Assembly (NCBI GenBank): GCA_030837965.1
Contig: JAUTXP010000013.1
Span: forward strand, 1 to 64,000
DNA: 64,000 nt
DNA from: Acidimicrobiaceae bacterium
GTDB taxonomy: Bacteria > Actinomycetota > Acidimicrobiia > Acidimicrobiales > JAUTXP01
Direction: 5' to 3'
Shown here piece by piece: positions 60,146-64,000 of this stretch (position 1 is the first letter of the stretch; every line of letters starts with the position of its first letter). The notes beneath the pieces were generated by a model. The model was not told where the DNA came from and did not search any database. It was given only the letters and a program-made list of their open reading frames with translations. The translations under genes were made by a program, and so were the position numbers.

Positions 60146-60643
60146 CTACCAGCCGGTCTTCACTCCGGTGATGGTCGCCGACGTGCCGTCCTCGCCGTTG
60201 CAGGTGAGGTCGGCCTTGTAGAAGTAGGTCCCCGCGGCGCCGCCGATGGCCACTTCGAGGACGCTGAAGCTGGTACCCGACTTCGACACCTTGCCGATGC
60301 AGACGCCGTTGTTGTCGCCCGCGGTGACCGCCGGCTTCAGGGCCACGCCCACGGCCGCGGTGGTGCCGCTGCCCGCCACGTAGGTGAGGGCCGACTCGAT
60401 GCCGGTCAGAGTGCCGACGGTGGCCGTGTAGGCCTGGTTGTCGGTGTAGAAGGTCTTCTCCGCGGTCAGCGCGTTGCGGATGTCGGATTGCGCGGCCCGG
60501 TCCTGGGCCCGCTGGCGGGCGCCGAGGAAGGTCGGGATGGCAATGGCCAACAAGATGGCGATGATCAGCACCACGACCATGAGCTCGATGAGGGTGAAGC
60601 CGTCCTCGTCGCGCTCCAGCCGCTTGCGCAGGGTGTGAAGCAT
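60146..60643 (-). CDS. pilA1: Type IV major-type pilin 1
   Basis: 165 residues. Prepilin site RDEDG/FTLIELMVVVLIIAILLAIA with Glu20 at +5; the helix continues to a variable head with two Cys (GVCIGKVSK, LTCNGEDG) that probably form the C-terminal disulfide loop. The first 80 residues are nearly identical in pilA1-3; heads differ mainly at surface-like positions. Own promoter, riboswitch and 3' hairpin. Confidence 0.94.
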   Translation of the reverse strand: MLHTLRKRLERDEDGFTLIELMVVVLIIAILLAIAIPTFLGARQRAQDRAAQSDIRNALTAEKTFYTDNQAYTATVGTLTGIESALTYVAGSGTTAAVGVALKPAVTAGDNNGVCIGKVSKSGTSFSVLEVAIGGAAGTYFYKADLTCNGEDGTSATITGVKTGW

Positions 60644-60658
60644 GTGGGTCTTCCTTTC

Positions 60659-60838
60659 GTGACTGCTGTGCAATTGACGGGGATACGAGCCCTGCTCCCC
60701 ACCCTCTCGGGTCCCCGCAGTCACGGGGCGGTCCTCCAGGCGGCTCGGCCGGCCTTCCGTCGTCGTTGACGGTGTGGGCCCCGGAGCTTTGCGTCCCCGC
60801 CTTCCGACGGGTTTGCCATTGACAAGAGCGACTGCTCG
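60659..60838 (-). promoter_or_regulatory. Cyclic-di-GMP-I (GEMM) riboswitch of pilA1
   Basis: The transcript has the class signature: GGCAAACC (60810-60817), a hairpin CCCGUC-GGAA-GGCGGG with GNRA loop, GGGACGCAAAGC (GCAAAGC at 60786-60792), a P3 arm ending in a CCGUC/GACGG hairpin, and GGCCGAGCCGCCUGGAGG. The base at the G20 position is G, as for c-di-GMP. GUGACUGC (60717-60724) can pair with GCAGUCGC at the 5' side (60828-60835) or with GCAGUCAC (60659-60666) next to the AAAGGA ribosome-binding site. Confidence 0.9.
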
Positions 60839-60845
60839 CAAGACA

Positions 60846-60875
60846 GGTATCGCCCCTGGCGCGCGTTGACTTGAG
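60846..60875 (-). promoter_or_regulatory. Sigma-28/WhiG-like promoter of pilA1
   Basis: On the minus strand CTCAAG (60870-60875), 15 bases, GGCGATACC (60846-60854). Transcription would begin near 60838, just before the riboswitch. Confidence 0.75.
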
Positions 60876-60994: not shown

Positions 60995-61492
60995 TTACCA
61001 GCCGGTCTTCACACCGGTGATGGTGGCCGACGTGCCGTCCTCACCGTTGCAGGTCAGGTTGGCCTTGTAGTAGTAGGTCCCGGCTGCGGTGCCGGTCGCG
61101 ACCTCGAGCATGCTGAAGTTCGTGCCCGACTTGGACACCTTGCCGATGCAGACGGCGTTGTTGTCAGCGGCAACCATGGCCGGCTTCAGGACGACGCCGA
61201 CCGCGGCCGTGGTGCCGTTGCCTGCGGCATAGGTCAGCGAGGACTCGATGCCGGTCAGGGTGGCGACGGTGGCCGTATAGGCCTGGTTGTCGGTGTAGTA
61301 CGTCTTCTCAGCCGTGAGGGTGTTGCGGATGTCGCTCTGGGCCGCACGGTCCTGGGCCCGCTGACGGGCGCCGAGGAAGGTGGGGATGGCGATCGCCAAC
61401 AGGATGGCAATGATCAGCACGACGACCATGAGCTCGATGAGGGTGAAGCCGTCCTCATCCCGCTCCAGCCGCTTGCGCAGGGTATGAAGCAT
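60995..61492 (-). CDS. pilA2: Type IV major-type pilin 2
   Basis: 165 residues, same architecture as pilA1: site RDEDG/FTLIELMVV with Glu20 at +5, DIRNTLTAEKTYYTDNQ in place of DIRNALTAEKTFYTDNQ, and a head ending ATITGVKTGW as in pilA1. Two Cys (AVCIGKVSK, LTCNGEDG). Separate promoter, riboswitch and 3' hairpin. Confidence 0.94.
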   Translation of the reverse strand: MLHTLRKRLERDEDGFTLIELMVVVLIIAILLAIAIPTFLGARQRAQDRAAQSDIRNTLTAEKTYYTDNQAYTATVATLTGIESSLTYAAGNGTTAAVGVVLKPAMVAADNNAVCIGKVSKSGTNFSMLEVATGTAAGTYYYKANLTCNGEDGTSATITGVKTGW

Positions 61493-61510
61493 TTGGATTG
61501 TTGTCCTTTC

Positions 61511-61680
61511 GTGACTGCAATTGACGGGTTGCGAGTCCTGCTCCCACCCTCTCGGGCTCCCCGCAGTCACGGGGCGGTCCTCCAGGCAGCTCGGCCGGCC
61601 TTCCTCTCCGCCGAGAGGGATGGGCTCCGTGGCTTTGCGTCCCCGCCTTCCAACGGGTTTGCCTTTGTCAGAGCGACTGC
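61511..61680 (-). promoter_or_regulatory. Cyclic-di-GMP-I (GEMM) riboswitch of pilA2
   Basis: GGCAAACC, hairpin CCCGUU-GGAA-GGCGGG, GGGACGCAAAGCC, and a P3 arm whose terminal hairpin is CCUCUC/GAGAGG instead of CCGUC/GACGG: compensatory change that supports the structure. GUGACUGC (61563-61570) can pair with GCAGUCGC (61673-61680) or with GCAGUCAC (61511-61518) beside the ribosome-binding site AAAGGA. Confidence 0.9.
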
Positions 61681-61690
61681 TCGCAAGACA

Positions 61691-61720
61691 GGTATCGCCA
61701 CCGCCATGGCCCGCCTTGAG
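61691..61720 (-). promoter_or_regulatory. Sigma-28/WhiG-like promoter of pilA2
   Basis: On the minus strand CTCAAG (61715-61720), 15 bases, GGCGATACC (61691-61699). Confidence 0.75.
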
Positions 61721-61812: not shown

Positions 61813-62310
61813 CTACCAGCCGGTCTTGACGCCGACCGTCGGGGCGGCCGCGCCGTCCTCGCCGGAGCAGCTCAAGCTGGCCTTGTAGTAGTAGGTGCCT
61901 GCATTGGTTCCGGAGGCCACGTCGAGGACGCTGAAGTTGGCGCCCGACTTCGAAGCCTTCGAGATGCAGATGCCGTTGTTGTCACCAGCGACGGTGCCCG
62001 CCTTGAGGGCGACGCCGACCGCAGCCGTGGTGCCGTTGCCGGCCACATAGGTGAGGGCGGCCTCGATGCCGGACAGGGTGGCCGTGGTGGCCGTGTAGAC
62101 CTGATTGTCGGTGTAGAAGGTCTTCTCGGCAGTCAGGGCATTGCGGATGTCGCTTTGGGCCGCACGGTCCTGGGCCCGCTGGCGGGCGCCGAGGAAGGTC
62201 GGGATGGCGATCGCCAAGAGGATGGCGATGATGAGCACGACGACCATGAGCTCGATGAGGGTGAAGCCGTCCTCATCCCGCTCCAGCCGCTTGCGCAAGG
62301 TGTGAAGCAT
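61813..62310 (-). CDS. pilA3: Type IV major-type pilin 3
   Basis: 165 residues: site RDEDG/FTLIELMVV with Glu20 at +5. The head is the most divergent of the three riboswitch-controlled pilins (GICISKASKSGANFSVLD, LSCSGEDGAAAPTVGVKTGW) but keeps the two Cys and the GW C-terminus. Separate promoter and riboswitch. Confidence 0.94.
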   Translation of the reverse strand: MLHTLRKRLERDEDGFTLIELMVVVLIIAILLAIAIPTFLGARQRAQDRAAQSDIRNALTAEKTFYTDNQVYTATTATLSGIEAALTYVAGNGTTAAVGVALKAGTVAGDNNGICISKASKSGANFSVLDVASGTNAGTYYYKASLSCSGEDGAAAPTVGVKTGW

Positions 62311-62323
62311 CTGGGTTCCTTTC

Positions 62324-62493
62324 GTGACTGCAATGGATGTGCGAGTCGCTGGCCCCTTGCCCTCTCGGGTCCCCGCAGTCACGGGGCGGTCCTCCAGGCA
62401 GCTCGGCCGGCCTTCCGTCGCCGTTGACGGTGTGGGCCCCGGTGCTTTGCGTCCCCGTCTCCCAACGGGTTTGCCCTTGTTCGAAGCACTGCT
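62324..62493 (-). promoter_or_regulatory. Cyclic-di-GMP-I (GEMM) riboswitch of pilA3
   Basis: GGGCAAACC, hairpin CCCGUU-GGGA-GACGGG (GNRA loop), GGGACGCAAAGC, P3 arm with CCGUC/GACGG, and GGCCGAGCUGCCUGGAGG. GUGACUGC (62375-62382) again matches GCAGUCAC (62324-62331) near the ribosome-binding site. The 5' partner is shorter here (GCAGUGC, 62486-62492), so the switch balance may differ. Confidence 0.88.
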
Positions 62494-62502
62494 CGCATGC
62501 CT

Positions 62503-62533
62503 GGTATCGGACGGTTCGCGACCACCCCTTGAG
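62503..62533 (-). promoter_or_regulatory. Sigma-28/WhiG-like promoter of pilA3
   Basis: On the minus strand CTCAAG (62528-62533), 16 bases, TCCGATACC (62503-62511). Spacing is one base longer than in the other three copies. Confidence 0.7.
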
Positions 62534-62766: not shown

Positions 62767-63264
62767 CTAGTTGGGCCAGGCGCTCTGCCAGCCGGGGTCG
62801 GTGATCAACGGGACCGAGCAGGTGGCGCCGCTGGGCACGACGGCCTGATAGTGGGTGCCGGTCGACGAGCCCGACATGATGTCGCGCAGGTAGTAGCAGC
62901 GTCCGGCCTTGCTGCGGCCCACCACAACCACGGTCTGGGCCGTGCTCGGGTAGTCCTGCACCTCGATGTAGACGACGCCGGGCGCCTCGGACCCGTCGAG
63001 CGCGGAGTTGGTCCACTGGAGCGCGGGCTCCAACGTCCGCATGGCTACAGGGTCCGCCGTGTAGCTCTGCTTCTCGTTGTAGTAGACGCGCGCCGCGGTG
63101 AAGGCGTTGCGCACGTTGGACGCCACCGCCCTGTCGTTGGCCGTCTTCTTGGCCCCCATAAAGGTCGGGATGGCCACGCCCAACAGCACGGCGATGATCA
63201 GCACCACCACCATGAGCTCGATCAGGCTGAAGCCGTCCTCGGTCCCCTGCCCCCCTGCGTGCAC
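62767..63264 (-). CDS. pilA4: Type IV pilin 4 (without riboswitch)
   Basis: 165 residues from GTG 63264. Prepilin site TEDG/FSLIELMVVVLIIAVLLGVA with Glu16 at +5; the helix matches pilA1-3 but the head is different (YYNEKQSYTADPVAMRTLEP, RCYYLRDIMSGSSTGTHY, ATCSVPLITDPGWQSAWPN). It follows pilC by 14 bases and has no leader of its own, so it is expressed with the pilus machinery instead of through the c-di-GMP switch. Confidence 0.9.
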   Translation of the reverse strand: MHAGGQGTEDGFSLIELMVVVLIIAVLLGVAIPTFMGAKKTANDRAVASNVRNAFTAARVYYNEKQSYTADPVAMRTLEPALQWTNSALDGSEAPGVVYIEVQDYPSTAQTVVVVGRSKAGRCYYLRDIMSGSSTGTHYQAVVPSGATCSVPLITDPGWQSAWPN

Positions 63265-63278
63265 CGGTTTCCGCCCGT

Positions 63279-64000
63279 CTACTTGATGAGCTTGATGATG
63301 TTGAACATCGGCATGTAGAGCGACACGACCATGCCGCCGACGGCGCCGCCGAGGACGACGATGAGGGCAGGCTCGAGCAGCGACGTCAACGCGGCCACGG
63401 TGGCCTCGACCTCTTGCTCGTAGAACTCGCCGATCTTGTCGAGCATGGTGTCGACCGCGCCCGTCTCTTCGCCCACGGCCAGCATCTGCGTGACCATGGC
63501 CGGGAAGATGGCGTGCTCGGCCATGCGCTTGGCGATGGGCTCGCCCTGCTTCACGCCGTCCTGCACGTCGTGCACGGCGCGCGAGGCCACGGTGTTGCCC
63601 ACCGTGTCGGCCGTGATCTCCAACGACTCGAGGATGGGGACGCCGGAGCGCAGCAGCGAGGCCAGCGTGCGGGCGAAGCGGGTGAGCGCCGTCTTGTGCA
63701 CGAGCTTGCCGAAGACCGGCACCTTCAGCTTGAAGGCGTCGAACACGGCCCGGCCCTTGTCGGTCTCGATCCACCGCTTGAACAAAAAGACGGACACGGC
63801 CATGAGCACCAGCACGATGGGGAAGGCGGTGACCAGCACAGAGGACACCAGCAGCAGCAACCGGGTCGGCAGCGGCAGCGTCCCGCCCAAGTCGTGGTAG
63901 AGGCCCTTGAACATCGGGACGATGAACAACAGCATGGCCGTGACGATGCACAGCACCAGGGCCAGCACCGCGACCGGGTAGGTCATGGCCGACTTGATCT
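63279..64000 (-). CDS. pilC: Type IV pilus inner-membrane platform protein PilC (3' part)
   Basis: C-terminal 240 residues of a GspF/PilC-family protein; the gene continues past the right edge in frame (IKSAMTYPVAVLALVLC). Membrane helices and the second T2SF domain are visible: FARTLASLLRSGVPILESLEIT, QMLAVGEETGAVDTMLDKIGEFYE, EPALIVVLGGAVGGMVVSLYMPMF. It recruits the extension/retraction ATPases to the pilus base. Confidence 0.95.
   Translation of the reverse strand, partial: IKSAMTYPVAVLALVLCIVTAMLLFIVPMFKGLYHDLGGTLPLPTRLLLLVSSVLVTAFPIVLVLMAVSVFLFKRWIETDKGRAVFDAFKLKVPVFGKLVHKTALTRFARTLASLLRSGVPILESLEITADTVGNTVASRAVHDVQDGVKQGEPIAKRMAEHAIFPAMVTQMLAVGEETGAVDTMLDKIGEFYEQEVEATVAALTSLLEPALIVVLGGAVGGMVVSLYMPMFNIIKLIK

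Follow-up and report, generated by a model that had tools for sequence, protein, structure and literature searches.

The window analysed here, a stretch of 64,000 nucleotides from an uncultured actinobacterium, contains three type IV pilin genes, pilA1, pilA2 and pilA3, arranged in tandem on the minus strand, and the prepilin signature was found above the cut-off in all three (Table 1). A fourth pilin-like gene (62767-63278, minus strand) is situated upstream of pilA3 in transcription order and is not preceded by an aptamer; a pilC-like gene is found at 63279-63986 (minus strand).

Each of the three leaders carries an aptamer with the core GGCAAACC and GACGCAAAGC. The Rfam scores lie above the gathering cut-offs in all three leaders, which upholds the original prediction of a c-di-GMP aptamer in front of the pilA genes. 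We assign these aptamers to the c-di-GMP-I riboswitch class with predicted ligand selectivity. The likeness to the families RF01051 and RF03167 (c-di-GMP-I and c-di-GMP-I-GGC) consists in aptamer sequence and structure above the gathering score. Both models stop at the aptamer, and the platform of pilA1-3, i.e., the helices masking the Shine–Dalgarno sequence (SD) and engaging the RNA 5' end, lies outside them. No description of a platform of this type was found in the literature searched.

Six c-di-GMP-I aptamers were detected in the genome, all above the cut-off of RF01051. The other three are located upstream of a minor pilin gene (leader L027), a gene for a small secreted protein and a glycoside-hydrolase-like gene, the genes having been called by eye. 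In L027 (G000:C6:50748-50835) the SD GGAGGU is part of the 3' strand of P1; this leader is possibly a simple OFF switch.

Table 1. Positions in the window of the pilin genes, aptamers, pairing strands and predicted promoters
Feature	Gene	Position	Strand	Basis or remark
Type IV pilin	pilA1	60146..60643	minus	TIGR02532 prepilin domain 32.4 bits, cut-off 16.3
Type IV pilin	pilA2	60995..61492	minus	TIGR02532 31.1 bits
Type IV pilin	pilA3	61813..62310	minus	TIGR02532 31.9 bits
AUG	pilA1	60641-60643	minus	sequence
Shine–Dalgarno AAAGGA	pilA1	60652..60657	minus	sequence
Strand b', GCAGUCAC, adjoining SD	pilA1	60659..60666	minus	pairs with b
Strand b' (61511-61518) and SD AAAGGA (61504-61509)	pilA2	61504..61518	minus	
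Strand b' (62324-62331) and SD AAAGGA	pilA3	62317..62331	minus	
Anti-SD strand b, GUGACUGC	pilA1	60717..60724	minus	pairs with b'
Anti-SD strand b, GUGACUGC	pilA2	61563..61570	minus	
Anti-SD strand b, GUGACUGC	pilA3	62375..62382	minus	
Strand a', GGCUCGUA, between strand b and SD	pilA1	60684..60691	minus	aligned without reference to strand a
Strand a', GGACUCGCAA	pilA2	61529..61538	minus	
Strand a', CGACUCGCA	pilA3	62340..62348	minus	
c-di-GMP-I aptamer	pilA1	60735..60826	minus	RF03167 60.4 bits, gathering score 59
c-di-GMP-I aptamer	pilA2	61581..61672	minus	RF03167 60.2 bits, cut-off 59
c-di-GMP-I aptamer	pilA3	62394..62485	minus	RF01051 54.4 bits, gathering score 35
5' strand GCAGUCGC	pilA1	60828-60835	minus	sequence; pairing with 60717-60724 at chance
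5' strand GCAGUCGC	pilA2	61673-61680	minus	sequence
Strand a, UUGCGAGC, predicted RNA 5' end	pilA1	60834..60841	minus	pairs with a'; covariation, cross-class recurrence
Strand a, UUGCGAGC	pilA2	61679..61686	minus	
Strand a, AUGCGAGC	pilA3	62491..62498	minus	
WhiG/FliA-type promoter, -10 element GGCGATAC	pilA1	60847..60854	minus	
WhiG/FliA-type promoter, -35 element CTCAAG	pilA1	60870..60875	minus	pattern T[CA]A[AG]-N-CGAT
WhiG/FliA-type promoter, CTCAAG ... GGCGATAC	pilA2	61692..61720	minus	
WhiG/FliA-type promoter, CTCAAG ... TCCGATAC	pilA3	62504..62533	minus	

Relatives were searched with the Rfam models and then with a covariance model (R1) built from 25 pilin-type leaders. The comparison set consists of 32 platform-bearing leaders, pilA1-3 included, every one upstream of a pilin gene; they were sorted by hand into 18 lineages. 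Aptamers matching R1 were present at each rank searched (class, 35 of 395 genomes; order, 38 of 397; phylum, 151 of 396), some of them before non-pilin genes. A pilin signature follows 19 of the 54 aptamers that were read in the search of the phylum, and the aptamer lies directly 5' of type IV pilin genes in other classes as well, beyond the 32 leaders of the own class.

Upstream of the aptamers the three leaders fit, in relaxed form, the promoter of the WhiG regulon, TAAA-N15-GCCGATAA, and we regard these sites as predicted promoters. From the position of CTCAAG and GGCGATAC the RNA of pilA1 is predicted to start near strand a. The relaxed WhiG/FliA-type pattern was found upstream of 27 of the 32 pilin leaders, with 0.28 expected from shuffled sequences, and also upstream of 20 of 62 leaders in which this aptamer precedes a gene of another kind (0.54 expected). 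WhiG is encoded in the genome (G000:C41; NF004935, 388 bits, cut-off 343), its gene adjoining, as judged by eye, a dprA-like gene. DNA patterns for the RsiG motif gave no real match; a protein search identified an RsiG-like protein (G000:C83:29541-29624) with an E-value of 5.6e-14 and 55.6 bits to chain T of 6pfj, which aligns over nearly its full length with Streptomyces RsiG. By eye this candidate keeps about seven of the ten residues of the two E(X)3S(X)2R(X)3Q(X)3D motifs, short of the complete motif, and c-di-GMP binding by it is uncertain because three of the ten residues differ.

The anti-SD strand b (GUGACUGC) is complementary to strand b' (GCAGUCAC). The 8-bp core of this pairing belongs to a helix b:b' of 9 bp in pilA1 and of 11 bp in pilA2 and pilA3. 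Since a single G intervenes between GCAGUCAC and AAAGGA in pilA1-3, the helix flanks the SD there but does not cover it; in several relatives it covers the SD itself. When the longest stem was compared with shuffled sequences, p values of 0.002 for pilA1, <0.0004 for pilA2 and 0.0003 for pilA3 were obtained, which are not independent tests because the leaders are tandem paralogues. For the duplex energy the corresponding values were 0.015, 0.005 and 0.005.

The relatives carry the same helix in other spellings (UUCCGGUGA:UCACCGGAA, CUCCUGCG:CGCAGGAG, CCUCCUG:CAGGAGG and CGUGAUGGGG:CCCCAUCACG), and in most lineages a strand following the aptamer is complementary to a sequence on the SD or just 5' of it. 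Taken singly, 12 of the 32 leaders reached p<0.05 against shuffles. Across the 18 lineages a strand paired with its own partner was better by 3.8 kcal/mol than with permuted partners, and none of 20,000 permutations was as good. The pairing of GUGACUGC with GCAGUCAC beside the ribosome-binding site, as originally proposed, is thus beyond chance in the three leaders and backed by covariation across the family. Judged by comparative evidence, b:b' is a real RNA helix, predicted to mask the SD region.

A second helix involves the RNA 5' end. In a platform alignment that was built without the 5' strand, a conserved block, GGCUCGCA, stood out downstream of strand b and ahead of the SD, and this block is complementary to UGCGAGC of strand a. 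The block, strand a', is spelled GCUCGUA or CUCGCA; in pilA1 UGCGAGC (60834-60840) pairs with GCUCGUA (60684-60690) 5' of the SD. On a joint alignment of the 32 sequences (A2), 79% of the cells of a:a' were paired, compared with 19-44% for a slid helix. Changes on both sides occurred at 6 pairs as against 3.1 after shuffling (1 of 500), and the covariation score was 0.231 as against 0.162 (0 of 500 shuffles). The rows of L060 and L135 were kept as placed by MAFFT, which counts against a:a'.

Outside the own class, pilin leaders of actinobacteria have the same two places connected by helices of 9-12 bp and unrelated sequence, for instance CUGCAAGCCGG:CCGGCUUGCAG and the 12-bp helix GUGACGAGCCGC:GCGGUUCGUCAC of L198, in which a' forms the loop of a 9-bp hairpin. 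Own pairings were better than permuted ones at 0.00055 in nine lineages of other classes and at 0.0001 in all 27 lineages. Within the own class, conservation of the sequence itself kept the difference from reaching significance (0.075). By this comparison the conserved partner of the predicted RNA 5' end is a' (GCUCGUA/CUCGCA), a segment that the original prediction overlooked, and not GUGACUGC. Two further elements were rejected. Continuing a:a' into the strand of P1 seemed plausible on visual inspection of most leaders, yet permuted pairings were as good as own ones (0.72), and the 5' hairpin GAGC:GCUC was present in about half of the leaders with weak statistics (0.096).

Variants of this arrangement were seen in other leaders. 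L220 has a 5'-end helix of 10 bp (GCAGGUCCGC:GCGGACUUGC). In L177, L188, L190, L192 and L223, which precede pilin genes of another class, a GUCCCUG:CAGGGAC hairpin presents a' in its apical loop; several of these leaders contain an extra CAGGGAC-like strand right 3' of the aptamer, which amounts to a different three-strand arrangement.

The order of the elements in the RNA is, from 5' to 3', a, aptamer, b, a', b' and SD. The helices a:a' and b:b' cross and are thus mutually exclusive unless a pseudoknot forms; a pseudoknot holding both together is possible. We propose that the leaders are c-di-GMP-I riboswitches acting on translation through a platform whose two helices, one at the RNA 5' end and one masking the SD, are mutually exclusive, and that ligand is slightly more likely to turn translation ON than OFF; to this proposal as a whole we would give about an even chance. 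In one state, strand b, right 3' of the aptamer, would pair with b' beside the SD and hinder the ribosome. In the other, the RNA 5' end (UGCGAGC) would pair with a', which is part of the loop closed by b:b'.

The 5' strand is the sole connection between P1 and the platform. In pilA1 and pilA2 its GCUC can pair either with GAGC of strand a, forming a local hairpin of -5.2 kcal/mol, or with GGAG of P1. Ligand would stabilise P1 (GCUCUUG:CUGGAG) and draw GCUC from the local 5' hairpin (GAGC:GCUC); with P1 closed, strand a would be free for a:a', and the SD hairpin would be opened. This coupling of P1 to strand a through the 5' hairpin is weakly supported by the sequences. The aptamer, b:b', a:a' and the promoter type are evident from sequence comparison, whereas mutual exclusion in vivo, the coupling to P1 and the direction of the switch are inferred.

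As to direction, ON is slightly favoured over OFF. An OFF switch would use the same competing helices: ligand-bound P1 would take the distal 5' strand from the a:a' side, the SD would be masked and pilin synthesis would fall. This reading, which we consider rather less probable than not, draws on nearest-neighbour folding. When P1 was forced and all pairings were allowed, b:b' was favoured more strongly in 21 of 30 leaders, the median shift being +2.9 kcal/mol. This lean toward OFF is due to the extension of a:a' that lacks comparative support. Once pairings without such support were forbidden, the median was +1.0 and the sign was mixed in the three leaders (pilA1 -0.6, pilA2 +0.9, pilA3 -0.3). 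As the outcome varies with the pairings allowed, we rejected the sign of these energies as a guide to direction. Accessibility of the SD was nearly unchanged with P1 forced, and the folding gave no clean two-state switch.

Two further points speak for OFF. The SD in the P1 3' strand of L027 represents a simple OFF design within the same genome, but overlap of SD and P1 is no rule among simple relatives, where it was not significant. An OFF switch would also agree with WhiG being held by RsiG at high c-di-GMP, both WhiG and an RsiG-like protein being encoded; here the three differing motif residues of the candidate weigh against the argument.

The original prediction shared the ON direction of the proposal preferred here but assigned a double role to GUGACUGC, which would pair either with GCAGUCGC at the 5' end, closing the aptamer and freeing the ribosome-binding site, or with GCAGUCAC, masking it, the set point being different for pilA3. 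The strands it named were all located correctly on the minus strand of pilA1, pilA2 and pilA3, and pilA3 indeed keeps GUGACUGC and GCAGUCAC while its 5' end reads GCAGUGC (62486-62492), with a pairing to GUGACUGC shortened to 5 bp. In pilA1 and pilA2 GCAGUCGC and GUGACUGC are complementary over 8 bp with one G-U, and the pairing could stack there on a:a' as an inner extension.

Against shuffled sequences, however, stems of this length are at chance level (p = 0.21 for pilA1, 0.23 for pilA2 and 0.90 for pilA3; duplex energy 0.08, 0.11 and 0.96). Relatives carry GAGCAGGUGCUC, GAGCAGCGCUC or GAGCAGUGCUC at this place, unmatched to their own anti-SD strands, the 32 related leaders lend the pairing no support, and in the permutation test used for b:b' the 5' strand paired no better with its own first 34 nt 3' of the aptamer than with permuted ones (fraction 0.77). 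We discarded GCAGUCGC:GUGACUGC as the aptamer-closing helix on account of the chance-level stems and the lack of retention in relatives. The different set point of pilA3 depended on this pairing and has lost its basis. The proposal is partly supported, its half at the ribosome-binding site being sound and its aptamer-closing half not; as a whole it seems improbable to us. The pairing to be targeted by mutation is a:a' instead of GCAGUCGC:GUGACUGC.

That the platform acts mainly on transcription, through Rho access or termination, with the helices before the SD being secondary, would suit the terminator-like hairpin and U-run seen by eye 5' of a' in some distant relatives (the L201 group), but it is unlikely for pilA1-3, whose leaders contain no hairpin followed by a U-run, the strongest covariation being found on and beside the SD.

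A c-di-GMP riboswitch before a major type IV pilin gene is known from Clostridioides difficile, where Cdi-2-4 controls pilA1 with a class II aptamer and acts as an ON switch by transcription read-through (PMC6200980). The leaders of pilA1-3 share the position with Cdi-2-4 but differ from it in having a class I aptamer with a platform at the SD. In the literature searched nothing was found on control of actinobacterial pilin genes by c-di-GMP-I riboswitches, though the aptamers are well known. At the level of transcription, WhiG promoters (TAAA / GCCGATAA) drive type IV pilus genes in Rubrobacter, and in Streptomyces and Rubrobacter WhiG is held by c-di-GMP-bound RsiG (PMC8325347). The locus described here resembles that system in the flagellar-type promoters before pilus genes and in encoding WhiG and an RsiG homologue. 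In contrast to it, the promoters of pilA1-3 precede a c-di-GMP aptamer, and two c-di-GMP-responsive layers would act per gene; a riboswitch is not mentioned in the Rubrobacter paper (PMC8325347).

Given the WhiG-type promoters together with the encoded WhiG and RsiG-like protein, c-di-GMP may act at two levels. Should the RsiG-like protein function like its Rubrobacter counterpart, the riboswitch would work against the transcriptional control if it is ON, giving a band-pass, and would strengthen that control if it is OFF. Tentatively, with chances somewhat below even, we extend this to a pilin design used throughout the phylum, in which WhiG/RsiG start the transcript and its first 7-12 nt pair with the region before the SD under control of a c-di-GMP-I aptamer. 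A single messenger would then gate both transcription and translation of pilin, coherently or as a band-pass. The analysis yields a platform backed by covariation, with two competing helices whose strands are located, and links it to the WhiG/RsiG switch known to control pilus genes in Rubrobacter.

Some further features of the leaders were noted. GGAGG at the 3' end of the aptamer is followed 8 nt later by a GUG (60717-60740, 61563-61586 and 62375-62398, minus strand), and the frame is open into all three pilins; a leader reading frame starting at this GUG was rejected, since GUG and frame are lost in relatives such as L068. In L201, L202, L209 and L226 the terminator-like hairpin with its U-run is followed by a strand a' (AAAAGAUCG) pairing with the 5' strand CGGUCUUUU, which suggests that this lineage is a transcriptional variant. 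Finally, a box AUCCAUUG placed after a' and before the SD, at 62331-62338 in the window and also in L001, L013, L016, L025, L066, L067, L068, L073, L132 and L135, is conserved in many leaders of the order and altered in pilA1 and pilA2.
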